This document shows, in pieces, positions 49,816 through 62,797 of a DNA stretch of 64,000 bases. The notes under the pieces were generated by a model, which made no database searches, was not told the DNA's origin, and saw only the letters and a list, made by a program, of their open reading frames with translations. How positions within the stretch are numbered: position 1 is the first letter of the stretch; the number at the start of each line of letters is the position of its first letter. The position numbers were made by a program, and so were the translations under genes. This stretch comes from Lactobacillus sp. Sy-1 (GTDB lineage: Bacteria; Bacillota; Bacilli; Lactobacillales; Lactobacillaceae), in the NCBI RefSeq assembly GCF_019303535.1, contig NZ_JACCIU010000002.1:62001-126000 (forward strand), given 5' to 3'.

Positions 49816-51603
49816 ATGAAAAAAAGAATCCTTCGTTCCAGCGTCTTAATTGGGTTAACCCTTTTAAGCATTAGCAGTGCTGTAAATGCAAAAGCTGATA
49901 AGACCAGTAAAAATAAAGCATTACTTGAAATTGATGCTGATCATAAATCAGATGCTGGTAGGTACTTCATTCAAGATTACCAAACTAACACCAGTGCAAA
50001 TACGACCCCAGAAACCAATGCTTCAATTGATTTGTTATCACAAATGAATAAGCTTTGGCAACCAGGTTCTGACTGGAACAATGGGAAACGCCTTAACACT
50101 AAGATTTTAGATGAAAACATTGATTTAGCAGATAAGATTGCTAAAACTAGAACTAAGGCTGAAGAAGATCAATCTTGGCTAGATGATAAAAATGATATGG
50201 ATTACTCAGTTCAAGAAGGACTAGGTAACCTTACTGATTACTTCAGAAAAGAAGCAAACATTACCGGTGGTTACACATCAGTTCCATCTGATGCTGAAAC
50301 TAAGGATTACGATACCAACTGGGATAAAGCTGAAGTAACTGGTGACACTAACTCTAGCTTAGGCAACGTTGTTAAACTTGCTGATACTTTGAAAGACGGT
50401 AACTACTCTTCCAGTAGTTCATCCAAGAAGTACTTTAAATATCCTCGACCATTTAGATGGGATGGTACTACCGTTACTAACGCGCAAGATAACGGTGTGA
50501 TTATTCCAACCCTAAAGCTATCAGCTAAGGCTGATCCAGTTAATGACTACGGGTTCCCAAGTGGTCACACTAACAGTTCATACTTAACTGCATACGCACT
50601 TGCATATGCTTATCCACAAAAATTCCAATCACTGTTAACCAGAGCCTCTGAAGTTGGAAACAACCGGATCGTTGCTGGTCGGCATTCACCCCTCGATGTT
50701 ATTGGTGGGCGGGTTCTTGGAACTGCGCTTGCAGCAGCAATCTTGAACGACCCAGCAAATGCCCAGCTAAAGGCAGACGCTTTCAAGCAAGCACAAAGTG
50801 TTTTGAAGGATTCTAAGGGGGATGACAATAGTTATGGTATGGATAATTCAAAGAAAAATTCCACCAAATACAACTACCGTTTAACTTATGGATTTTCAAA
50901 GATTGCTAATTCTAAGCATACCTACGTAGTACCTAAGGGTGCAGAAGTTCTTCTTGAAACCAGATTACCATACCTAAGTGCGACTCAAAGAAGAGCCGTT
51001 CTTGCAACTACTGAATTACCAACTGGCTACCCAATCCTAGATGATGGCGAAGGTTGGGGGCGTTTAAACCTTTACAACGCTGCAAATGGTTATGGTCAAT
51101 TAGTTTCTGACACCACTGTTAAGATGGATGCATCCAAGGGTGGCTTTAATGCCTCTGATACTTGGAGCAACGATATTACCGGGGTTGGAAAACTTACTAA
51201 GACTGGAACTGGTTCACTCCAATTAACTGGAAAGAACACCTACAAGGGTGGCGTTGCAGTTAAGGATGGTTCACTAGTGGCCGCAAGCAATGATGCACTT
51301 GGAACTGGTGACGTTGCAGTTAATGGTGGGAACCTTAAGCTTTCCGCAAAGAAGGTTACTGTGAAGGGCGCCTACAAGCAAAGTAGTAAGGGAACCACAT
51401 CACTTGCTAAGGACGGTCGCTTAGTAGTTAAGAAGGGTGCCACTTTAGGTGGAACCTTGAAACTAGATGGTGGTAAGTTTAAGAGCGGTGACAAGATCAT
51501 GAGTTACACTAGTCACAAGGGTAAGTTCAGTAAAGTAACTGGATTAAGCCACGGGCTTCACATTATTTACAATAACCACGACATTAGTATTGCAAAGAAG
51601 TAG
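49816..51603 (+). CDS. Secreted PAP2 acid phosphatase with autotransporter-like repeats
   Basis: A 595-residue exported enzyme. The signal peptide is followed by a PAP2/class A acid phosphatase domain with all three signature parts: Lys205...Arg-Pro 211-212, P-S-G-H at 248-251 and R284...His290-x3-Asp294. From about 440, V-G-K-L-T-K-T-G-T-G-S-L-Q-L-T-G, N-T-Y-K-G-G and D-G-S-L matches the autotransporter-associated beta-strand repeat known mainly from Gram-negative passengers. It would release phosphate from organic esters at the surface, with the repeat forming a beta-helix stalk (inference). The codon bias suggests high expression. Confidence 0.85.
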   Translation: MKKRILRSSVLIGLTLLSISSAVNAKADKTSKNKALLEIDADHKSDAGRYFIQDYQTNTSANTTPETNASIDLLSQMNKLWQPGSDWNNGKRLNTKILDENIDLADKIAKTRTKAEEDQSWLDDKNDMDYSVQEGLGNLTDYFRKEANITGGYTSVPSDAETKDYDTNWDKAEVTGDTNSSLGNVVKLADTLKDGNYSSSSSSKKYFKYPRPFRWDGTTVTNAQDNGVIIPTLKLSAKADPVNDYGFPSGHTNSSYLTAYALAYAYPQKFQSLLTRASEVGNNRIVAGRHSPLDVIGGRVLGTALAAAILNDPANAQLKADAFKQAQSVLKDSKGDDNSYGMDNSKKNSTKYNYRLTYGFSKIANSKHTYVVPKGAEVLLETRLPYLSATQRRAVLATTELPTGYPILDDGEGWGRLNLYNAANGYGQLVSDTTVKMDASKGGFNASDTWSNDITGVGKLTKTGTGSLQLTGKNTYKGGVAVKDGSLVAASNDALGTGDVAVNGGNLKLSAKKVTVKGAYKQSSKGTTSLAKDGRLVVKKGATLGGTLKLDGGKFKSGDKIMSYTSHKGKFSKVTGLSHGLHIIYNNHDISIAKK

Positions 51604-51633
51604 TAAGAATTAATAATAACGACATCAACTAAT

Positions 51634-51668
51634 AAAGGGACGTTCAAATTGATTTTGAACGTCCCTTT
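51634..51668. terminator. Bidirectional terminator, 15-bp stem
   Basis: AAAGGGACGTTCAAA pairs perfectly with TTTGAACGTCCCTTT. Confidence 0.9.
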
Positions 51669-51671
51669 ATT

Positions 51672-51905
51672 TTAACCAGGAATGCGATCGAAGTTAAATG
51701 TTCTTAATCCTTCTTCGTACCCCTTTAAATATGGCTCACTATGTTTGACCTTAAAAATCCGGTTAACGAGGTCCCGATTTTTGACCCCCGCTTTAAATAA
51801 CATTTGAGTGAGACTAACTTGATTGCCCTTTAAGTTGGCAATTGAGTCATCGATGGCTTGTCGATACCCGTTATTAAAATCGATTTCTAAAAAATTACTA
51901 TCCAA
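51672..51905 (-). CDS. Conserved hypothetical protein, 77 aa
   Basis: A soluble 77-residue protein: N-N-G-Y-R-Q-A-I-D-D-S-I-A-N-L-K-G-N near the start and L-K-G-Y-E-E-G-L-R-T-F-N-F-D at the end. The start is TTG, with AGAGGGGAATTGAT as an extended ribosome binding site. The function is unknown. It converges on the phosphatase gene at the shared terminator. Confidence 0.62.
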   Translation of the reverse strand: MDSNFLEIDFNNGYRQAIDDSIANLKGNQVSLTQMLFKAGVKNRDLVNRIFKVKHSEPYLKGYEEGLRTFNFDRIPG

Positions 51906-52079
51906 AATTAATCAATTCCCCTCTAAAAACATGCTTAATTATTATACCGCTAATTCCACTTTATTTGGTTCCAATTAGTAAATGCGTGAAACAATCTTGT
52001 AACCCTGTTTCACGTTGCCTATTATTATGAATTAGCTTAGAATATAAATAATAAGATGAAGCCAATTTGGAGGGATTAC

Positions 52080-52670
52080 ATGAGAAACGGTTTAAAGGAT
52101 TTAGCTGCTGACAAGCGGTACGATTTTGTTGGAAAGTTCACGAGGCTAGGGTATGCCGAAGCGTACAATGACGAAGCTGGTTATTACTACCAACCCACCA
52201 TTTTATTTCTAGATGTTCATGATGGTCAGGGGAACTTTGTTACTGATCACGTCTGGGTTCATTACACCGAACCATTCATTAAGTTGAATCAACTTGAGGA
52301 GGGTGATTTAGTGGGCTTCAATGCTGAGGTCCATTCCTATAAGAAAGGGGCCGGCATTAATAAGGTAACTGATTACGAACTAGTGGAAATTAAAGATGTG
52401 GTTCGCAAGAATAATAATGATCAATCCCGTCCAAAGGTGCCAAGTGAAAATAAGCCCCTTGTTGGCTACGTAATGGAACGCAATCGGGCCTTCTACGAAA
52501 AGGCACAACGAAACGTAGATGAAGAATACACTCAGGCCTATGATCAATGGCTCCATCCAGATGATTATAGTGATGCTACCTCCTACTCTGATGAAGACGA
52601 AGATGATTCCGGGCTTGATCCGGATTTATTGGCAAAGCTAAAACAATTTTCGGATGATAATTTAAAATAA
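52080..52670 (+). CDS. Hypothetical protein, OB-like N-terminal domain
   Basis: A 196-residue soluble protein. The first 100 residues (F-V-G-K-F-T-R-L-G-Y-A, T-I-L-F-L-D-V-H-D-G-Q-G, D-L-V-G-F-N-A-E-V) read as a five-strand barrel of the OB type, then a charged helix and an acidic tail (Y-S-D-E-D-E-D-D). That layout is seen in some single-strand DNA-binding or plasmid-encoded proteins, but I cannot assign a function. GGAGG lies 6 bases before the ATG at 52080. Confidence 0.65.
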   Translation: MRNGLKDLAADKRYDFVGKFTRLGYAEAYNDEAGYYYQPTILFLDVHDGQGNFVTDHVWVHYTEPFIKLNQLEEGDLVGFNAEVHSYKKGAGINKVTDYELVEIKDVVRKNNNDQSRPKVPSENKPLVGYVMERNRAFYEKAQRNVDEEYTQAYDQWLHPDDYSDATSYSDEDEDDSGLDPDLLAKLKQFSDDNLK

Positions 52671-52685
52671 TTGTGATGATAATAA

Positions 52686-52726
52686 AAAATGAGCCCCTCC
52701 ACTGACTGGAAGGACTCACTTTTTAT
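52686..52726. terminator. Terminator between converging genes
   Basis: AATGAG-CC-TCCA pairs with TGGA-GG-CTCA with internal mismatches, then T5. Confidence 0.7.
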
Positions 52727-53910
52727 TTTGTTTTGGGTTTTTTAACTAGTTGAAAACTAAAGATGATAACCATTAGAATGGCAATTAAAATACTGAATAG
52801 CCCAATTCCTGGTTGTGCTCCAGATACTGGAGAAATTTGGTTTAAAAAGCCCATTACAATTGGTGAAATGGCAGTTCCAACGTTACAGCCAACTAATAAA
52901 ATTGAATTGGCAAGGGCGTTGGAATTTTTAGGAGCGACCGTATCCATTAGGTTAAAAACGTACGTTCCAGCAAGCGGGTATGCACCACCAATAATGACAA
53001 CTCCAATCGTTAGGATAACTAAGTTAGGTGCAAAATTCATAATTGAAAGGCCGATTGTGAATACTAACAGTCCCAATGGGAGAACAAATCGCCGAAAAAT
53101 TTTGAAGAACTGACCGAATAAAAAGCCCATTAACATACTTGCAATCGTAAAAATGGTAATTACGAAACTAGCATCAGTAGCACTCCCTAGTTTACCATTG
53201 ACCACGATGGTGGGGGTCATAACACTAACGGTGGCTAGTCCCATTGTCATCACGGCACAGAAGACCCCGGCCAAGATTACGGCAAAGTTAACCTGCGCGT
53301 GAGTTTGGTTACCATCTTGATCAACCGTTTCAGTGGATTTGATATCTGGAACGACCTTCCAAAAAATTACCAGGATTACTAGAATAAAGAAGTAAGATAA
53401 AAATGATACCTGCCAACTAATGTTGAGTAGTTGGCCCACTAAAATGTTTACAATACATAGCCCGATGGTTTCAAATGAATTCCGATTGCCCAGCATTTGG
53501 GCCTGATCATCGCCACCATAAAAGATATTAATAATCGTAATGGCTAGCGAATTAATTAACCCAATCCCGATTCCAAAGATAATTCTAGAGCCTAAGATGA
53601 ACCAGAGGTTAGGCACAAACGCTGGAACGACTCCTGAGATTCCCATTAGTAGAATTCCTAAACCAATCATTTGTTTGATACCAAACCGCTTTGCCAGCGG
53701 GGCGGACATTAGTAAAACGATAAATGCCGGAATTTGCTGAATGGTTGCGACCATGTTCACCAGTGTTGGTGAATAATCAGAAAATGTTTTTTGCATTGCT
53801 GGAAGGGCGGGCGAAATTGCCGTTCCAGTGGTGATGACTAGTGAAACCGCTAAAATTGAGAAACGGTGGAACCATGTTTTAGCGTTCCAATCATTGTTAT
53901 TGGTAGCCAT
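52723..53910 (-). CDS. MFS transporter, 12 helices
   Basis: A 395-residue major facilitator permease. The motif A-K-R-F-G-I-K-Q-M-I-G follows helix 2 and G-S-R-I-I-F-G-I-G-I-G helix 4. The sequence resembles drug or cyanate/nitrate-type exporters of the DHA1/CP group; the substrate is unknown. GGAG lies 8 bases before the ATG at 53910. It is a single gene with no regulator alongside. Confidence 0.83.
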   Translation of the reverse strand: MATNNNDWNAKTWFHRFSILAVSLVITTGTAISPALPAMQKTFSDYSPTLVNMVATIQQIPAFIVLLMSAPLAKRFGIKQMIGLGILLMGISGVVPAFVPNLWFILGSRIIFGIGIGLINSLAITIINIFYGGDDQAQMLGNRNSFETIGLCIVNILVGQLLNISWQVSFLSYFFILVILVIFWKVVPDIKSTETVDQDGNQTHAQVNFAVILAGVFCAVMTMGLATVSVMTPTIVVNGKLGSATDASFVITIFTIASMLMGFLFGQFFKIFRRFVLPLGLLVFTIGLSIMNFAPNLVILTIGVVIIGGAYPLAGTYVFNLMDTVAPKNSNALANSILLVGCNVGTAISPIVMGFLNQISPVSGAQPGIGLFSILIAILMVIIFSFQLVKKPKTK

Positions 53911-54061
53911 ACTATTCACTCCAATCAGATAAACTTATTTTATATTTTTTATTATAGCACTTTTTTGGCAAAAGAAAACGCTTTCATTTAATCTATCCCA
54001 TTTTCGAATTGCCAGCATGCTATAATAAATTTAAATTTAGTGGTTGGTTGGAGGTGCAATT

Positions 54062-54832
54062 TTGCAGGATACAGAACAGAATCAGATTGCTAATTTCTGT
54101 TGTCGACTGGGGCGGACACTTATTGAAAGTGGTGCTGAAATAAACCGGGTCGAAACAACGGTGGAATTTATTGGTCATAAGGCTGGGTTGCATGATTTAA
54201 GTTGTTATGCCGAATTAGGGGTTATTTTCGTTTACTACCAGGGTGGAATTAAAAATCAGATTATGAAGGTCAAGGGTCATGATTTTAATTTTCAAAAGGT
54301 TGATGAAATCAATAACCTATCCAGGCAGTTTGTTGATAACAAAATCACATATGAATATTTACAGACTGAGTATTCACGGATTAGGGATAAGGTAATTGAC
54401 TTTTCGCTTCGTAAGAAAATTTTTGCGGCTGGATTAGTATCGGTTGCGCCCCTATTATTATTCCATACGAATTGGTTGAACTTAGCATTTTCCTTTTTTG
54501 TGGGAATTTTAGGGTACTTAGCAACTCGCTTTATGACTGGCAAGTTACGAACTCCGTACCTAAACGTTGCAGTTGGTGGATTTGTAATCGGCCTTTTGGC
54601 AATTACCATTCAGTTGTTGGTTAAGGGAACGGATGATGACATGATTATTTTTAGTTCACTAATGCCGATCGTTCCCGGGATTGCCCTTACCAATTCATTT
54701 AGAGAAATTATGGCTAAAAATATCTTATCTGGATTAATTCTGGGGATGGACGCTACGATGGTTGCAGTTTCAATCAGTGGTGGCGTAATTATTGGAAAAC
54801 TATTAATTCAAATTATGATTGGTGGGTTTTAA
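54062..54832 (+). CDS. ThrE-type threonine/serine exporter, large subunit
   Basis: A 256-residue protein of the ThrE/DUF1212 (YjjP-like) type: a soluble N-terminal part (R-L-G-R-T-L-I-E-S-G-A-E-I-N-R-V-E) and five membrane helices (R-T-P-Y-L-N-V-A-V-G-G-F between them). With the next gene it forms a split ThrE exporter of threonine, serine or related amino acids. The start is TTG at 54062 with GGAGG 7 bases upstream. The two genes are 2 bases apart. Confidence 0.85.
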   Translation: MQDTEQNQIANFCCRLGRTLIESGAEINRVETTVEFIGHKAGLHDLSCYAELGVIFVYYQGGIKNQIMKVKGHDFNFQKVDEINNLSRQFVDNKITYEYLQTEYSRIRDKVIDFSLRKKIFAAGLVSVAPLLLFHTNWLNLAFSFFVGILGYLATRFMTGKLRTPYLNVAVGGFVIGLLAITIQLLVKGTDDDMIIFSSLMPIVPGIALTNSFREIMAKNILSGLILGMDATMVAVSISGGVIIGKLLIQIMIGGF

Positions 54833-54834
54833 AA

Positions 54835-55296
54835 ATGGTGATTAGCGTCGAATTTTTGTTTGCATTTTTATCAACGTGGGGGTTTGGTGTAATTACCAAC
54901 GTACCGAAGCGGACCCTAGTTGCATCTGGAATTGTTGGTGCAATGGCTTGGATTGCGTATATTCTAGCAACTAATTTTGGAGCGAACGTAATCGTTTCCA
55001 ACCTGTTACCAGGAATTGTGGTCGGCCTGTTTGCTAATGTTGAATCAATGATTGTAAAAACGCCGGTTAATTTAATTTTTGTACCAGCGGTAATTTCATT
55101 AGTCCCGGGGGCGTTATTCTATAAAAGTATGGAACAAATTACTTTGGGATTAAACCGCCTTGGGATGCAGGGGCTTTTGAAGACGCTTTTGATTGCGATC
55201 TCTTTAGGAATTGGCTTTATTATTGGAGAGGTGATTTTTAAACTTTTGAAACCCCGAATTAGAAAGTTGATTTTATTTACAATAAAAAATAAGTAA
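54835..55296 (+). CDS. ThrE-type threonine/serine exporter, small subunit
   Basis: A 153-residue protein of the ThrE_2/DUF3815 (YjjB-like) type with four to five helices: F-G-V-I-T-N-V-P-K-R, N-L-L-P-G-I-V-V-G and V-I-S-L-V-P-G-A-L-F-Y are typical. It pairs with the upstream large subunit. The ATG follows the previous stop by 2 bases, and the TGGTGGG-type site lies in the previous gene's end. Confidence 0.85.
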   Translation: MVISVEFLFAFLSTWGFGVITNVPKRTLVASGIVGAMAWIAYILATNFGANVIVSNLLPGIVVGLFANVESMIVKTPVNLIFVPAVISLVPGALFYKSMEQITLGLNRLGMQGLLKTLLIAISLGIGFIIGEVIFKLLKPRIRKLILFTIKNK

Positions 55297-55378
55297 TTTA
55301 AAATTAATTATAAATTACATTAGTTTTAGATTAAAATTATCATTTACTTTTAATCAAAAGAATTATATAATAGTAACT

Positions 55379-55535
55379 GGTTAAATAATTAATAACTTAA
55401 ACAATTGAACTCCTTTAATGACTAGTAAATATAATTTCTATTGTTATTACATAATTATTTAATCTAAACAGGTACATCATTAATTTTCCTCGAATAACCC
55501 TGCTATTCATTCTGAATAGCGGGGTTATTATTTTT
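55379..55535 (+). ncRNA. Candidate short RNA or leader with own promoter and terminator
   Basis: TTTACT (55344-55349), 17 bases, TATAAT (55367-55372) is followed about 120 bases later by a terminator whose AATAACCC-GCTATTCA arm is inverted at 55513-55529, ending in T5. Between them the only frame is M-T-S-K-Y-N-F-Y-C-Y-Y-I-I-I, without a ribosome binding site. It could be an independent RNA or the first of two tandem leaders before oppA. Confidence 0.5.
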
Positions 55536-55561
55536 AGATTAAATTTATTTTAAAAAATTAA

Positions 55562-55590
55562 TTGACTTTTAATTTAATTTCAAATAGAAT
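55562..55590 (+). promoter_or_regulatory. Promoter of the Cys-leader/oppA unit
   Basis: TTGACT (55562-55567), 17 bases, TAGAAT (55585-55590). Confidence 0.75.
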
Positions 55591-55632
55591 AACTTTAATC
55601 AATCAAATCGAATGGAAAGGAGTTACCCAATC

Positions 55633-55719
55633 ATGACTAATTTATTCTCATCAATGTGTACATGTTGTCAAACAAACGTTAGCACGAATGTGGTAGCTCT
55701 TTTAAGCTTCGGTCAGTAG
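55633..55719 (+). CDS. Cys-rich leader peptide (28 aa)
   Basis: AAAGGAG lies 10 bases before the ATG. The peptide reads M-T-N-L-F-S-S-M-C-T-C-C-Q-T-N-V, then S-T-N-V-V-A-L-L-S-F-G-Q. Three Cys codons in four (positions 9-12) make a natural stall site when cysteinyl-tRNA is short. A stable hairpin spans the stop codon, and a terminator follows. I infer Cys-responsive attenuation of the peptide-binding protein gene at 55853. Confidence 0.65.
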   Translation: MTNLFSSMCTCCQTNVSTNVVALLSFGQ

Positions 55720-55756
55720 CTGTTTGATAACTAGTATCAATTACTGATCGACATTA

Positions 55757-55814
55757 AAAGGCCGCTCACCCGGGCTAATGTTTTTACATTAGCTTTGGGG
55801 GAGCGGTCTTTTTT
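55757..55814 (+). terminator. Attenuator/terminator before oppA (55853)
   Basis: A long stem (AAAGGCCGCTC, CCC and GCTAATG against CATTAGC, GGG and GAGCGGTCTTT) ends in T6, 38 bases before the ATG. Confidence 0.82.
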
Positions 55815-55852
55815 ATTTTAAATTTGATTAATATAATTTATGAGGTGGAAAC

Positions 55853-57490
55853 ATGAAGAAGTTACTCGCTGTATCAACAATATCAATATTAGCTGGATTA
55901 ACCCTGGCGGCCTGTGGTAATCAAAGCACGAACCAAGAATCAAAGAAGCGCCAAACGCTTAACTTAGCTGCAGCATCACCATTATCAACGATTGATATTT
56001 CAAAATCAACGGGATACGGTTCAACTGGAAACGTATTTGAAAGTTTTTATCGGCTTGGTAAAAACGGAGCGACTGACCCGGCACTGGCAAAGAGTGGCTC
56101 CAGTAGTAAGGATGGGAAAACGTGGACGTTTAAGTTACGGGATGCTAAGTGGAGTGATGGAAGTCCAATTACTGCTGCGGACTTTGTTTACTCATGGCGG
56201 AGAACGGTGAATCCTAAAACTAAGGCCCAGTATGCATATTTATTTAATAGCGTGGTGAATGGGAAGCAGATTAACGAAGGCAAGTTGTCACCAAATAAGC
56301 TTGGAATTAAAGCATTGGACAAACATACGGTACAAATTTCACTGGTTAAACCGGTCGCATACTTCAAAACTTTAATGGCGTACCCACTATTCGGACCGCA
56401 GAGTAAAAAAGTGGTTGATAAGTATGGCGATAAGTACGGAACTAAGTCTCAATACATGGTTTATTCCGGTCCATTTAAAATTATCAATTGGAACGGAACG
56501 GGGAATACCTGGGCTTACGTGAAGAATGACAATTACTATGATAGCAAGGATGTTAAGCTTAAGCGCATTAATTACAATGTGATTCAAAGTCCATCCACTA
56601 GTTTGAACTTATACAATCAGGGGAAGCTAGACATCACTTCGTTGTCGACTGAACAACTTAAGAACTACCAAAAGAGTCCTGATTTAAAGGACTACTCATA
56701 TTCAATGACCACTTATCTTAGATATAACTTTGCCGATTCGAACGCTGAAAACAAAAAGGTGATTAATAATATTAACATCAGAAAGGCAATTTCACTTTCA
56801 ATCGACCGTTCGCTACTTTCTAAGAAGGTGCTTGGCTTTAAGTCAGCCGTGACGACTGGATTTGTTCCCCATGGCCTAGCGAATGATCCCAAAACGGGGC
56901 AGGACTTTGCTGATCAACAATCGGTTGATAACACCCTAAACTATAACCAAAAGTTAGCGAAACAACTATGGGCTAAGGGCTTAAAGGAAGTTGGGACCAA
57001 CAAGGTTTCGTTAACAATCTTGGCAAGTAACGACGATCCTAATAGTGGGGTGGTTACGCAGTACTTGAAGGGACAATTAGAATCAGTATTGAAAGGCTTT
57101 ACGCTGAACATTAGAAGTGTGCCTGGCCAAATTGCTAGCCAACAAAGTCAAAAGGGAGAATTTGACATTAGCCTGGCTGCTTGGGGTGGTGATTTTAAGG
57201 ATCCAATTACGTTCCTTCAAATTCCACAAGCAAATACGCCATACAACTATGGGAAGTACAACAACACTAAGTACGATAATTTAATTGACCGTGCTGAAAA
57301 TAAAGATGCCAATAACCCTGAAAAACGTTGGCAAGATTTGATTGGGGCTAGTATGGAATTGAACCGGGATCAGGGAATTTCACCACTATTCCAAAATGAA
57401 ACCTACTACCTTCAAAAAGCTAGTGTGAAGAACATTATCCATAATACTGCTGGACCACAGTGGAGTTACAAATATACCTATATTAAATAG
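55853..57490 (+). CDS. oppA: Peptide ABC transporter substrate-binding lipoprotein
   Basis: An OppA-family receptor of 545 residues. Lipobox L-A-A-C with Cys21. Motifs: W-T-F-K-L-R-D-A-K-W-S-D-G-S-P, F-V-Y-S-W-R-R-T-V-N-P, N-I-R-K-A-I-S-L-S-I-D-R. It is a paralogue of 24243 and 59610 (same ending pattern N-P-E-K-R-W-Q-D-L). GAGGTGG lies before the ATG. Its Cys-rich leader suggests a role in fetching sulfur-containing peptides or cystine-type compounds (inference). No permease genes are nearby. Confidence 0.9.
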   Translation: MKKLLAVSTISILAGLTLAACGNQSTNQESKKRQTLNLAAASPLSTIDISKSTGYGSTGNVFESFYRLGKNGATDPALAKSGSSSKDGKTWTFKLRDAKWSDGSPITAADFVYSWRRTVNPKTKAQYAYLFNSVVNGKQINEGKLSPNKLGIKALDKHTVQISLVKPVAYFKTLMAYPLFGPQSKKVVDKYGDKYGTKSQYMVYSGPFKIINWNGTGNTWAYVKNDNYYDSKDVKLKRINYNVIQSPSTSLNLYNQGKLDITSLSTEQLKNYQKSPDLKDYSYSMTTYLRYNFADSNAENKKVINNINIRKAISLSIDRSLLSKKVLGFKSAVTTGFVPHGLANDPKTGQDFADQQSVDNTLNYNQKLAKQLWAKGLKEVGTNKVSLTILASNDDPNSGVVTQYLKGQLESVLKGFTLNIRSVPGQIASQQSQKGEFDISLAAWGGDFKDPITFLQIPQANTPYNYGKYNNTKYDNLIDRAENKDANNPEKRWQDLIGASMELNRDQGISPLFQNETYYLQKASVKNIIHNTAGPQWSYKYTYIK

Positions 57491-57493
57491 TAG

Positions 57494-57528
57494 AAAACGG
57501 GTGTCAATCTATTGGCGCCCGTTTTTTT
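57494..57528 (+). terminator. Terminator
   Basis: AAACGGGTG-CAA pairs with TTG-CGCCCGTTT, then T4. Confidence 0.82.
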
Positions 57529-57556
57529 GATGCTTTTATGCCACCATTTTATGAAT

Positions 57557-57576
57557 ACCGTGGCATATGCCACGGT
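57557..57576. promoter_or_regulatory. Perfect 20-bp palindrome, candidate operator
   Basis: ACCGTGGCATATGCCACGGT is fully self-complementary and much more GC-rich than its surroundings. It lies about 80 bases before the multidrug MFS gene, so a TetR-like repressor site is plausible. No such regulator is encoded next to it. Confidence 0.6.
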
Positions 57577-57655
57577 TAGGAAACAATCGACCATTTTATT
57601 TTGGATTGTGGTTTTCTATAATTACTAAAAAGAAATGTTTAATGGGAGGTTTAGG

Positions 57656-59125
57656 ATGAATAAAAGACAGCTGTTATTAACAACGGGGGCGCTATTGGTT
57701 GCTAATTTTATGGGCGGATTAGACGCCACCATTGTTAATACTACGTTACCTGCAATTACTAGTGATTTAAATGGAATTCAATTAATTGGGTGGATCAGTT
57801 CTGCGTTTTTGTTGGGAGTTGCTGTTACTACGGTCCTCTGGGGGCGCTTAGGAGAAATCATTAATAATAAACTGACGTTCCAAATTGCGGTACTATTGTT
57901 TGTTGTTAGTTCATTCATGGCGGGAGTTGCGCCAAACATGATTTTCCTAATCGTTATGCGGGCGTTAATGGGAATTGGCACTGGTGGAATGGTATCAATT
58001 CCGTTTATCATTTATGCACAGATATACCCAGAGCCACGGGAACGGGCGAAAGCAGTGGGGTTGGTTACCGCTTCTTATGCATTCGCCACGGTTTTAGGCC
58101 CCATCTTAGGGGGATTCATTGTGGATCACTTTTCATGGCATTGGATTTTCTTCATTAACGTTCCGATTGGCCTTTTATCAATTGTTATATTGCAATTTGA
58201 ATATCGAATTAATAATTTTGAAAAACCCCAGAGTCGCTTTGACTACCGCGGAGCTGGATTGCTAACCATTACCCTAGTGGTAACTTTATTTGCAAGCAGC
58301 TTGTTATCTATCGATGCCACTTTGACAATCATACTAGTTGGAATTGCAATTATCCTTGGCATTATTTTTTATCAAGTGGAAAAAAGGATTTCAGATGCAT
58401 TGGTGCCCGTGCAACTGCTAAAGAATTGGCCCGTGCAGTCCCAAAATATCATTATGTTTTTGATCAACGGCTACTTTATCGGCTTTAGTGTCTATGCCCC
58501 AATGTGGGCCCAAGGAATCTTGGGGACCGATGCCACTGCGGGTGGGCTAACTCAAATTGCGGGTTCCCTCCTATTAATGGTCGGAACTAGATTGACGGCT
58601 CGATTAATGAAACGGTTGCCTTATCGCACAATTGTGGGACTGGGGACACTCAGTATTTGCTTATCAGCACTAACCATGTTTCTAGCAACGCAGGGCCTCC
58701 CATATGTTTGGTTGTTAATTAGTGGGGCGTTCAATGGTTTTGGCATGGGCCTGTCATTTACACCGATGCAAATTTCCGTCCAAGATGGAGTCCCTAAACG
58801 ACTAATGGGGGTGTCAACAACCTTCGGATTATTAGTGCGAACGCTTGGGGAAACCTTTATGGCCGCTATTTTTGGGACCCTGTTCAGTATGGAAATTGTA
58901 CAGCAAACTGGTCCGGATCACACCCTTACGATGGTTACTAAGTTGACCAACTTTGTAACGGCAAAGAATTTACCAGCTGACCGGATTCCACAACTTAGGA
59001 CGATGCTTTTCAGTGGCTTACATTTAGTAATGTCAGTTGGCTTGGGACTAGCGATTTTTGCACTGGTTTTAAACCTATTTAGACGGCTACCAGCTAATGA
59101 ATTAAAGAAGGATTTAAAAAATTAG
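57656..59125 (+). CDS. DHA2-family MFS drug efflux pump (14 helices)
   Basis: A 489-residue proton-driven exporter of the EmrB/QacA type. The N-terminal L-D-A-T-I-V-N-T-T-L-P-A-I (motif D1), W-G-R-L-G-E-I (motif A), R-A-L-M-G-I-G-T-G-G and G-P-I-L-G-G-F-I (motif C) are present. The substrate is unknown, presumably toxic organics. GGGAGG lies 6 bases before the ATG at 57656. It forms an operon with the SnoaL-like gene 12 bases downstream, and a perfect palindrome lies upstream. Confidence 0.9.
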   Translation: MNKRQLLLTTGALLVANFMGGLDATIVNTTLPAITSDLNGIQLIGWISSAFLLGVAVTTVLWGRLGEIINNKLTFQIAVLLFVVSSFMAGVAPNMIFLIVMRALMGIGTGGMVSIPFIIYAQIYPEPRERAKAVGLVTASYAFATVLGPILGGFIVDHFSWHWIFFINVPIGLLSIVILQFEYRINNFEKPQSRFDYRGAGLLTITLVVTLFASSLLSIDATLTIILVGIAIILGIIFYQVEKRISDALVPVQLLKNWPVQSQNIIMFLINGYFIGFSVYAPMWAQGILGTDATAGGLTQIAGSLLLMVGTRLTARLMKRLPYRTIVGLGTLSICLSALTMFLATQGLPYVWLLISGAFNGFGMGLSFTPMQISVQDGVPKRLMGVSTTFGLLVRTLGETFMAAIFGTLFSMEIVQQTGPDHTLTMVTKLTNFVTAKNLPADRIPQLRTMLFSGLHLVMSVGLGLAIFALVLNLFRRLPANELKKDLKN

Positions 59126-59137
59126 GGGGAAATAATG

Positions 59138-59572
59138 ATGACAATTAACATTCAAGAAATTAGTGACCGGATCGAATTAAAGCAGTTAGTGGACCAATTA
59201 TCTAACTACGCTGATACAAAGGAGAATGAAAAACAGGTTCAACTTTTTACGGAGGCCGGAAAGGTTAATATCATTAATAATGAAGGAAAGGTAACTTTTC
59301 AGTTAAGTGGTCGTGACGAAATATTGAACGCCTTTGCAAAATCAATGGCCGGGTTCAAAAGTGTGTTTCATATGAGTGGGCAACAAACGGTTGAATTTAT
59401 TGATGACCACCATGCGCGTGGAGTTGCATATAATTACGTGGTGCTAACAAAGGAAGAAGCTGACGAATTAATCACGACCCAAGAAGGGGTTCGTTATGAT
59501 GATTACTACGTTAAAGAATCCGATAAGTGGTTAATTGATACCCGTAATTCACATTTTATTTGGCGGAAATAA
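59138..59572 (+). CDS. SnoaL/NTF2-like protein
   Basis: A 144-residue protein of the NTF2/SnoaL-like cone fold: an N-terminal helix (I-E-L-K-Q-L-V-D-Q-L-S-N-Y-A-D), V-H-F-type strands (F-K-S-V-F-H-M-S-G-Q-Q-T-V-E-F), then a final strand W-L-I-D-T-R-N-S-H-F. Family members bind or isomerise small hydrophobic molecules. Here it may act on the efflux pump's substrate. GGGGG lies 8 bases before the second of two adjacent ATGs (59138). Confidence 0.78.
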   Translation: MTINIQEISDRIELKQLVDQLSNYADTKENEKQVQLFTEAGKVNIINNEGKVTFQLSGRDEILNAFAKSMAGFKSVFHMSGQQTVEFIDDHHARGVAYNYVVLTKEEADELITTQEGVRYDDYYVKESDKWLIDTRNSHFIWRK

Positions 59573-59574
59573 CT

Positions 59575-59605
59575 AAAAAAAGGCGCTCACTGAGCGTCTT
59601 TTTTT
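59575..59605. terminator. Bidirectional terminator
   Basis: AAAAAGGCGCTC pairs with GAGCGTCTTTTT (one mismatch) around a 2-base loop. Confidence 0.82.
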
Positions 59606-59609
59606 AATT

Positions 59610-61250
59610 CTATTTTACATATGCCTTAGAGAAGTCCCAACTGGTGCTTCCTGAAGGGTTGTATTCTAGTCCCTTGATGTTGGTCTTCATTACAACTGGG
59701 GATGTGTTTTGGTAGAATGGGATGTTTCCTTGATCGTTTGCGTAAACCTTTTCAGCTTGTACTAAGTCGTTCCAACGTTTGCCTGGGTTATTGGCATCTT
59801 CATTTTCTGACTTATCAAGGTAGCTATCGAACTTACTGTTCTTCCATTTACTAAAGTTTAGCGAACTAGTTGACTTCTTGATGCTTAGTGCAGCGACTGG
59901 ATCTGGGAAGCTTGGATCCCAACCAGTAACACACATGTCGAACTTACCGGAGAAGAGCCGGGCAATTCTTTGTTGACGAGGTAGGTTGACGTTAGTAACC
60001 TTTAATCCTGGTAATTTTTGGAAATTACTTTGTAGGAATTCAGTAGTGGCCTTGGCGCTATCAGTATCATCATATGTCAACGTGAGGTTCAATGACTTCA
60101 TACCGAGTTCCTTTAACCCTTCTTGCCAAAGCTTTTTAGCTTCGTTTAAGTTGTATTCAGTTGCTGATTTAACGTAGGCGGCGTCTGCAAAGTCGGTTCC
60201 CTTGTATGATGCGAGCCCGTTAGCAACAAAGCCCTTAGTTGGGGTGGACCCATCACCCAAGACGTCCTTGACAAATTGTTGTCTATCAACAGCCATTGAT
60301 AGCGCTTTTCTAATCTTAAGGTTTTTAAAGGCAGAAACCTTGGCTTCGTTTAATTCAATGAAGTTAGAGTAAACTGACTTATTTTCGTGATAGCCAGGAT
60401 CCTTTTTAAAGTGTTCAACTTGTTGCTTACCGTTGAGGCTTAATTCATCTAACTTACCAGTTTGATATTCATTTAATCCAGTTTGGTTATCCTTAACAAC
60501 GTGCATGTTTACCCGTTTTAACTTAACTGAAGCGCTGTCCCAGTACTTGTCGTTTTTAACCAGGCTCCAAGTATCGTTAGTTCCGGTCCAACCAGTTGCC
60601 TTGAATGGTCCGTTGTAAACTTGGCTGGCACTATTAGTTCCGTACTTCTTACCGTATTTATTAACGACCTTTTCATTTTGAGGCAGGAATGCAGAAGCGG
60701 TAACTAAGTATTTAAAGTAGCTTTGTGGTTTTGAGAGGTGAACAACTAGGGTGTAGTCATCAGGAGCGGAAACCCCTAGTTTAGATGGAGCCATTTTACC
60801 ACTTTGCACCGCAGCGTAATTTACAACGTGGTCATATAGGTAGGCATCTTGTGATGCTGTCTTGGGATTAACGGTTCTTTGGAATGCAAAGACGAAGTCC
60901 TTAGCGGTAACTGGATCACCGTTACTCCATTTAGAGTGCCGTAGTTTAAATGTATATGTTTTCCCATCGCTGGAAACTTGATAGCTCTTGGCAACTGCAG
61001 GCACAACGCCCTTACCATCTGGGTTCTTAAGTAGCCCTTGATCAACATTGCCTAGTGCAGTGGCACTATTAACATCGATACTTTTAGAAGGGTCTAGGGT
61101 GATTAAGTTTGCATTTTGCATCCAATTAATGGTTTGACTCTTGGCGGTACTACCTGAATTTGATGATTGGCTAGCTGATGATCCACAACCTGCCAATCCA
61201 AACGCAACTAATAGTGTTGCGGCGCCTGCTTCTAGTAATCTTTTTTTCAT
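59610..61250 (-). CDS. oppA: Peptide ABC transporter substrate-binding lipoprotein
   Basis: An OppA-family receptor of 546 residues. Lipobox L-A-G-C with Cys22, then a Ser-rich linker. Motifs: Y-T-F-K-L-R-H-S-K-W-S-N-G, V-T-A-K-D-F-V-F, I-R-K-A-L-S-M-A-V-D-R. It resembles 24243 more than 55853. AGGAGG lies 8 bases before the ATG at 61250. It lies 54 bases downstream of the amidohydrolase gene, so both are probably controlled by the T-box at 62496. Confidence 0.9.
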   Translation of the reverse strand: MKKRLLEAGAATLLVAFGLAGCGSSASQSSNSGSTAKSQTINWMQNANLITLDPSKSIDVNSATALGNVDQGLLKNPDGKGVVPAVAKSYQVSSDGKTYTFKLRHSKWSNGDPVTAKDFVFAFQRTVNPKTASQDAYLYDHVVNYAAVQSGKMAPSKLGVSAPDDYTLVVHLSKPQSYFKYLVTASAFLPQNEKVVNKYGKKYGTNSASQVYNGPFKATGWTGTNDTWSLVKNDKYWDSASVKLKRVNMHVVKDNQTGLNEYQTGKLDELSLNGKQQVEHFKKDPGYHENKSVYSNFIELNEAKVSAFKNLKIRKALSMAVDRQQFVKDVLGDGSTPTKGFVANGLASYKGTDFADAAYVKSATEYNLNEAKKLWQEGLKELGMKSLNLTLTYDDTDSAKATTEFLQSNFQKLPGLKVTNVNLPRQQRIARLFSGKFDMCVTGWDPSFPDPVAALSIKKSTSSLNFSKWKNSKFDSYLDKSENEDANNPGKRWNDLVQAEKVYANDQGNIPFYQNTSPVVMKTNIKGLEYNPSGSTSWDFSKAYVK

Positions 61251-61304
61251 AATCATTTCCTCCTAATATTCCTGATGGCCGTGTTTATAGACGCCCTTGT
61301 TAGT

Positions 61305-62450
61305 TTATTGAACTGCTTTAACATCTTCTAATGGATTTTTATCCAGCACTAGAAAATCTGCGTACTTGCCAGCTGCTAGTGTGCCGTAATCTGTTAACTT
61401 CATTAATTCAGCCGAGTGACGGGATGTTGATAACGCGTCAAAGTTAGTGAAGCCCTCTTTTTCCACCATTAATTCAAATTCTTTAGCGGTTTTGCCGAAA
61501 TCGTTATAAGGAGTTCCAGCATCCGTTCCTAGAGTTACATGAACGCCCTTTGCATATGCATTGTGAACGTTTGCGTATAGGTCATCTAGGGCATCGGTTA
61601 GCTTATTTAGTTCCCACTTTGGGAGGGTATCTTGTCCATAGTGTGCAATACACCAAGCCGATACCAACGTGGGGGTTAAGTATGTATGATTTTTAACCAT
61701 CATTGTGATTTCTTCATCATTGACGTAAAATCCATGTTCAACGGAGTCAACCCCGGCAACCAATGCGTTCATAATTCCAGGATTGCCCTCTGCGTGAGCC
61801 GCAACTACGGCGTGTTTATTGTGTGTTTCTTCAACGGCAACCTTTAGTTCTGCAACGGATAGTTGCGGTTCGTCCATATAATCACCAGGGGACATGACCC
61901 CACCAGTTGCCATTACCTTGGTACATTGGGCACCATTTTTGAAGTTTTCCCGAACCGCTTTTCGCATCTCATCTGGTGAATCCACCGTCTTCCCACCTTC
62001 AGGATAATCACCGTGTCCACCGGTCATTGTCATTGCACGGCCAGCTGCCATTACTTCAGGAACCTTAGTTAGTTTCCCTTCGCGTTGCATTCGAGCTAGG
62101 GTAGTATCAAGTCCATAGGTGCTTCCACATTCCCGAACGTACGTAACGCCTGACTTTAATAGTGCGCGGAGGTTCTCAACGGCCCGCACCGCAGTTTCAG
62201 TTTGATCAGCCTGAGTGGCTCCATCAAAAGCATTGGAATCTAGTGTTACGTGGGTATGGCAGTTAACCATCCCTGGCATCACGTATTTCTGATTTAAATC
62301 TACCTTTGAATCCGCTTGTGGATGTTCATTACCAGTTCCTAATTCGACTAGTTTACCAGTGGCATTATCAACAAGCATCCATGAATCTTTTGTAACCCGA
62401 TTGTCCTTACCGTTAAATAAATGAAAGTTAACAAAGAGTGTTTTACTCAT
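61305..62450 (-). CDS. Amidohydrolase-superfamily enzyme (imidazolonepropionase/prolidase-like)
   Basis: A 381-residue metal-dependent hydrolase. The metal ligands expected for the superfamily are present: H-T-H in V-N-C-H-T-H, K in T-K-V-M-A-T-G, H in A-A-H-A-E-G, H in V-E-H-G-F and D in G-T-D-A-G-T. This pattern is common in Xaa-Pro/Xaa-Arg dipeptidases and imidazolonepropionase-like enzymes. A dipeptidase role would fit the OppA gene in the same operon. The ATG at 62450 has AAAGG 11 bases upstream; the longer frame runs through the T-box and is not real. Confidence 0.82.
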   Translation of the reverse strand: MSKTLFVNFHLFNGKDNRVTKDSWMLVDNATGKLVELGTGNEHPQADSKVDLNQKYVMPGMVNCHTHVTLDSNAFDGATQADQTETAVRAVENLRALLKSGVTYVRECGSTYGLDTTLARMQREGKLTKVPEVMAAGRAMTMTGGHGDYPEGGKTVDSPDEMRKAVRENFKNGAQCTKVMATGGVMSPGDYMDEPQLSVAELKVAVEETHNKHAVVAAHAEGNPGIMNALVAGVDSVEHGFYVNDEEITMMVKNHTYLTPTLVSAWCIAHYGQDTLPKWELNKLTDALDDLYANVHNAYAKGVHVTLGTDAGTPYNDFGKTAKEFELMVEKEGFTNFDALSTSRHSAELMKLTDYGTLAAGKYADFLVLDKNPLEDVKAVQ

Positions 62451-62495
62451 ATTAAACAAAACCTTTCTGAAAAAATATTTTGAATTGTTACAAAC

Positions 62496-62797
62496 AAAAA
62501 AGACGTCCCCTATTTTTAGTAATAAAAATAAAGGACGCCTAATAAGCGCGGTACCACCTCTGTTGAGCCAATTATAAATTGACACCACTCTAACAAACCC
62601 GTTGATTTGCAGATTCTGTAATGGGAATTCCCAGCGCGGGTTACATTGTGTTCACCCGGCAGCTCATAGATGATTTTCATATCCAAAATTAACGATTCCT
62701 TTCACCAAACGAAATCTCTCTGCGGTCTCTTTTGAATACTACTGATTCTAATTAACGCTTTTTAATTTAATTTGTCTTGTTAAATTCAATAATTGAT
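62496..62797 (-). promoter_or_regulatory. T-box riboswitch of the amidohydrolase-oppA operon
   Basis: Read leftward, the leader shows GCAGAGAG...GGTGAAAGGAA (Stem I), CGGGT...ACCCG (middle stem), AGAGGTGGTACCGCG (T-box, 62546-62562) and a terminator (GGCGTCC-TATTTTT with AAAAATA-GGACGTC, then T6, 62496-62539). ATC in TGAAAATCATC is a plausible specifier, which would mean tRNA-Ile; this needs structure-based alignment. Confidence 0.88.

Follow-up and report, generated by a model that had tools for sequence, protein, structure and literature searches.

The window, a stretch of 64,000 nucleotides of the Lactobacillus sp. Sy-1 genome (contig NZ_JACCIU010000002.1, positions 62,001 to 126,000), harbors a gene for an OppA-type peptide-binding lipoprotein, here called oppA. 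The promoter, the AAAGGAG motif, the 28-codon leader with C-T-C-C, the hairpin at its stop codon, and the long terminator that the sequence-only reading had placed before oppA can all be read from the sequence, and the locus comprises the following features.

55493-55529, + strand: intrinsic terminator that ends the preceding transcription unit (terminator scan: 17 pairs, T tail)
55562-55590, + strand: sigma-70-type promoter TTGACT-17-TAGAAT (promoter scan, matches 10/12)
55616-55622, + strand: Shine-Dalgarno sequence (SD) AAAGGAG of the leader ORF (sequence, fold, swap test, pair counts)
55616-55627, + strand: strand 1, which includes the SD and has 55692-55703 as its partner (fold, swap test, pair counts)
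55633-55719, + strand: leader ORF of 28 codons, MTNLFSSMCTCCQTNVSTNVVALLSFGQ, with ATG at 55633 and stop codon TAG at 55717-55719 (translation; orthologous leaders)
55657-55668, + strand: regulatory codons Cys-Thr-Cys-Cys (TGT ACA TGT TGT), with the Cys codons TGT at 55657-55659 (codon 9), 55663-55665 (codon 11), and 55666-55668 (codon 12) (sequence; Cys cluster in 100/122 orthologues)
55676-55705, + strand: strand 2, the 3' half of the leader, partner of strand 1 or, as antiterminator, of strand 3 (ribosome-position folds; alignment A2)
55709-55751, + strand: hairpin across the stop codon (fold; 5 pairs changed on both sides in relatives)
55754-55781, + strand: strand 3, which forms the terminator's 5' arm or pairs with strand 2 (folds; pair counts)
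55756-55814, + strand: intrinsic terminator (3:4), hairpin 55756-55808 plus T tract to 55814 (fold; 11 two-sided pairs)
55853-57490, + strand: oppA, OppA-type peptide-binding lipoprotein (SBP_bac_5) of 545 amino acids (Pfam PF00496, E 2.6e-79)

The terminator at 55493-55529 insulates the leader element from the upstream transcription unit. Since the promoter scan yields 7 calls versus 5.4 in shuffles, the weight of the promoter call rests on its position. The 53-nt terminator hairpin at 55756-55808 (about -36.6 kcal/mol in the fold) has a long and bulged stem and is absent from the list of the simple terminator scan. The leader region folds at -83.7 kcal/mol versus -50.4 kcal/mol for shuffles (z = -8.0). 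No Rfam match was obtained at the leader element, and the T-box model RF00230 had no match at the gathering score within window positions 50000-60000. Six oppA paralogues, with weaker matches, were found in the same genome.

Orthologues of oppA, searched for at E <= 1e-155, were present in 152 of 398 Lactobacillaceae genomes, and the upstream regions of 122 orthologues were surveyed for SD-preceded short ORFs with at least three Cys in seven residues within 420 nt upstream. Such Cys-cluster leaders were detected in 100 of the 122 orthologues, representing 13 of 17 genera, and in 2.3% of Markov-shuffled upstream regions; the identical cluster test for every other residue identified at most 26 of 122. 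The predicted Cys-cluster leader before oppA is a conserved element, beyond chance. The leader peptides have the Cys run in common and are otherwise dissimilar (CTCC, CCC, CCCC, CCSMC, CCPCC), as seen in the leaders of Apilactobacillus (CCCQTVVSTNVV) and Lentilactobacillus (CCSMCPAQVSADGGFF) and in the Cys runs of Levilactobacillus (AACCECNV), Ligilactobacillus (CCCLVTCC), Lactobacillus (ECCCTRC), and Furfurilactobacillus (FCCCSTC). Conservation of the leader codons, on which the sequence-only reading had made its proposal depend, was found in many genera, the Cys cluster being the sole conserved feature of these unlike leaders. A terminator-like hairpin with a median of -28 kcal/mol lies between leader and gene in 95 of the 100 leader-bearing orthologues; no terminator was found with the Cys leaders of L057 and L132.

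Among the 22 orthologues without a leader, L087 (CCMMYNMC) and L117 (CC) are near-misses with looser clusters, and the upstream region of L061 ends at a contig edge. Genus g26 (L023, L128-L130) contains the most diverged orthologues, and neither a Cys leader nor a T-box was found there. The oppA paralogues were considered as carriers of the same leader and ruled out, with a Cys cluster in 1 of 19. In the Apilactobacillus kunkeei type (L009, L037, L038, L040-L043), the leader ORF lacks an ATG and probably starts with TTG, and the Cys run is situated just 8 codons in. A second short, SD-preceded, Cys-rich ORF lies downstream of the terminator, in the last 120 nt before the oppA start, in L021, L024, L121, and L123-L127 (genus g5) as well as in L010 and L011, with peptides such as MESECSDCRVFPS, MSPGCPCLNKN, and MAKSCCCWMMTKN.

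Support for the individual helices came from alignment A2, composed of 12 close sequences from the window and Apilactobacillus-type relatives. In this alignment, 11 pairs of the terminator are changed on both sides, a value that no shuffle attained. The stop hairpin has 5 such pairs, and 12 of 500 shuffles equaled or exceeded its covariation score; the SD helix has 4, with a score that no shuffle matched. The antiterminator helix is 88.6% paired in A2, compared to 31-52% when slid; its covariation did not exceed that of shuffles in A2, as there is almost no variation in the leader strand. In a swap test, own partner strands were compared with those of foreign genera. For the SD helix, foreign partners performed at least as well as the own one in a mean fraction of 0.21, and this default 1:2 pairing of the SD with the 3' half of the leader was own-specific in 11 of 13 genera, own-specific meaning that fewer than one in four foreign strands equaled the own partner. 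Support from this test was weaker for the antiterminator (mean fraction 0.305), which was own-specific in part of the genera. The two-strand antiterminator was not own-specific in genera g5, g25, g37, and g38, where the switch may be built differently. Pairing of the leader with the 3' arm of the terminator was discarded, since foreign partners were equally good (mean fraction 0.495), which is the chance level.

Folds with simulated ribosomes, computed without kinetics and with an assumed cover of about 11 nt downstream of the A-site codon, suggest how these pairing options could alternate. In the window sequence without a ribosome, 55692-55703 is predicted to pair with its own SD region at 55616-55627, leaving the terminator free. 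With the ribosome at Cys12 or Cys9, the prefix as far as the terminator loop is predicted to form a long helix (-35.0 and -40.4 kcal/mol), in which the 3' half of the leader pairs with the 5' arm of the terminator and the stop hairpin is enclosed. With the ribosome at the stop codon, the terminator alone remains. When 13 genera were folded in this way, a base of the 5' arm had a mean probability of upstream pairing of 0.60 in the stalled state and 0.23 with the ribosome at the stop codon; the value was 0.39 with no ribosome and 0.42 in the stalled state with the leader segment shuffled. The stalled state exceeded the stop-codon state in 13/13 genera (Wilcoxon p = 0.0002) and the shuffled-leader control in 12 genera (p = 0.0005). 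Since the full-length minimum energy of the window sequence still favors the terminator, the switch must be kinetic.

We consider it likely, with a probability of about 0.86, that the element acts by ribosome-mediated transcription attenuation, with charged tRNA-Cys as the signal sensed and the oligopeptide-binding lipoprotein gene as the target. With ample cysteine, the ribosome would pass C-T-C-C, reach the stop codon, and cover the 3' half of the leader, so that the terminator at 55756-55814 could form and oppA would be silent. With Cys-tRNA in short supply, we infer that the ribosome would stall at codons 9-12; 55676-55705 would then pair with 55754-55781, the stop hairpin would stack between the two strands, and transcription would enter oppA. 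If the leader were not translated, its 3' half would close over its own SD and the terminator would form by default. The geometry of a cysteine-responsive attenuator, recognized at this locus by the sequence-only reading, is supported at the level of sequence by the conservation of the Cys codons, by folds that alternate with ribosome position, and by a second copy before a cystine-type operon.

This second copy emerged from a scan of the genome for further leaders with the DNA pattern SD-ATG-CysCys, which yielded one further in-frame standout, the leader MTSMKMMCCTLINCCTLSNALVMSFSRNYHP, which is followed by a terminator and lies upstream of an ABC operon of three genes. The best NCBIfam matches of the operon's proteins are a cystine SBP, the TcyN ATPase, and a cystine permease, all below equivalog cut-offs. 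For a wider Cys-leader regulon in this genome, just the cystine-type operon stood out, with a pattern that is noisy and misses other spacings. Among 30 loci examined, Cys leaders precede orthologous cystine-type operons in three more genera (MISMVKTCMCRC, MAKVSYQAMLMAQPCCMMC, and MKSCPCSK), and thus leaders before such operons are a minority. In the folds of all four cystine-type leaders, the 5' arm of the terminator is paired upstream more when the ribosome is stalled than when it is at the stop codon.

Liquorilactobacillus (g31) and L099 (g33) possess orthologous oppA genes with a T-box in place of the Cys leader. Two of these T-boxes reach the Rfam gathering score, and the rest were recognized by the T-box motif and the specifier register. 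The specifier, GAAG-ATG-R, lies in a register that also occurs in the metE and metA T-boxes of the window's genome, both genes being named from their N-terminal sequence, and because of this shared register the oppA T-box is putatively methionine-specific. GAT (Asp) as the specifier was dropped, since ATG is what the metE and metA T-boxes show in this register. In the tree, the T-box-bearing oppA genes nest inside the Cys-leader clade, and the orthologue clade is separated from the paralogues with a support of 100/100. The oppA orthologues would thus represent a clean case of sensor replacement. In L134, a T-box with the methionine-type register seems to be followed by the Cys leader MRMCCCCCTDR, about -400 and -95 from oppA, which suggests tandem Met and Cys control. 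A role of OppA related to sulfur amino acids would be the simplest reading.

Cysteine clusters are able to bind metal, and sensing by nascent chains has precedents. The same RNA switch would also serve a nascent Cys-rich peptide that responds to a metal or to the thiol state while in the exit tunnel and causes the ribosome to stall or be released, in which case cysteine supply would not be the signal. We regard this as improbable, because the leaders preserve the number of cysteines and not their geometry (CTCC, CCC, CCCC, CCSMC, CCPCC, CPC), because the controlled genes encode a receptor for peptides and an importer of the cystine type, and because some oppA orthologues use the methionine-type T-box instead. 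Slightly less probable still is a mainly translational or RNA stability-based regulation, in which a stalled ribosome would open the ribosome site of oppA or protect the mRNA and the terminator would be minor. The Cys runs lacking a terminator in L057 and L132, and the second Cys-rich mini-ORFs within 120 nt of oppA in several orthologues, are in keeping with such regulation; the strong terminators between leader and gene in 95/100 orthologues, and the sequestration of the terminator 5' arm in the folds of the stalled state, argue against this alternative. Least probable of all is a small ORF whose product is itself functional, as a secreted or intracellular peptide (a bacteriocin, a pheromone, or a metal chaperone), and that precedes oppA by coincidence: its translation signals and position are conserved and OppA proteins can import peptide pheromones, but outside the Cys run the peptides cannot be aligned between genera, neither their start codons nor their lengths are constant, nucleotide conservation falls in the RNA helices, and inspection by eye shows no signal peptide.

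To our knowledge, regular leader-peptide attenuators are rare and hardly known in Firmicutes. The putative oppA attenuator resembles the trp/his-type attenuators of Proteobacteria in its regulatory codons, its 1:2, 2:3, and 3:4 helices, and the terminator before the gene; it differs from them in that cysteine replaces Trp or His, strand 1 includes the leader's own SD, and the antiterminator encloses a separate, stacked stop hairpin. In bacilli, leader peptides for histidine have been proposed upstream of hisZ/hisS* (Naville and Gautheret 2010, PMC2965389), and these likewise represent regular leader-peptide attenuation in Firmicutes that replaces a T-box, albeit for another amino acid, other genes, and another family. 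T-boxes (RF00230) also convert an amino acid starvation signal into antitermination, and one takes the leader's place before oppA in Liquorilactobacillus; however, they sense the tRNA directly without translation, and none is present at the oppA element of the window.

No description of a Cys leader in lactobacilli was found in the open-access literature, in agreement with the sequence-only reading, which had put forward a cysteine-responsive attenuator before an oligopeptide receptor in lactobacilli as apparently undescribed; Cys leaders as such are known in Actinobacteria. Leaders with Cys codons were predicted there before cys/cbs operons, in mycobacteria without conserved terminators (Seliverstov 2005, PMC1262725), and cysteine-responsive attenuation was reported for the mycobacterial leaders (Canestrari 2020, as described in PMC9031893). 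What the actinobacterial polycysteine leaders and the oppA leader have in common is a short ORF, with Cys codons in succession, upstream of sulfur genes. In contrast to them, the oppA leader has an intrinsic terminator and alternative helices, occurs in a Firmicutes host, and precedes transporter genes; furthermore, the mycobacterial ORFs are leaderless, whereas the oppA leader has an SD and its ATG lies about 42 nt after the -10 box. The proposed mechanism ties in with slow ribosomes at Cys codons, detected by 5'P sequencing in L. plantarum growing in MRS (PMC10234816).

The leader provides a functional clue to an orphan OppA, from which we infer that this receptor might take up Cys-containing peptides, and it could act as a natural cysteine reporter. 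It seems somewhat more plausible than otherwise that Cys leaders govern the peptide receptor together with the cystine-type importer in an undescribed sulfur-amino-acid scavenging regulon of Lactobacillaceae, in which evolution has exchanged the receptor's sensor, a Cys-counting ribosome in some lineages and a Met T-box in others, and has added a second Cys-rich mini-leader in places. The putative Cys-specific leader attenuator, conserved across 13 genera, those of L. brevis and L. salivarius among them, would stand in a genome rich in T-boxes: in the 2.0 Mb of the window's genome, 38 T-box matches were found, 18 of them above the Rfam cut-off. The best of these matches lies in the window itself, at 62528-62764 on the - strand, upstream of an amidohydrolase gene (61305-62588) and an oppA paralogue (59610-61256).
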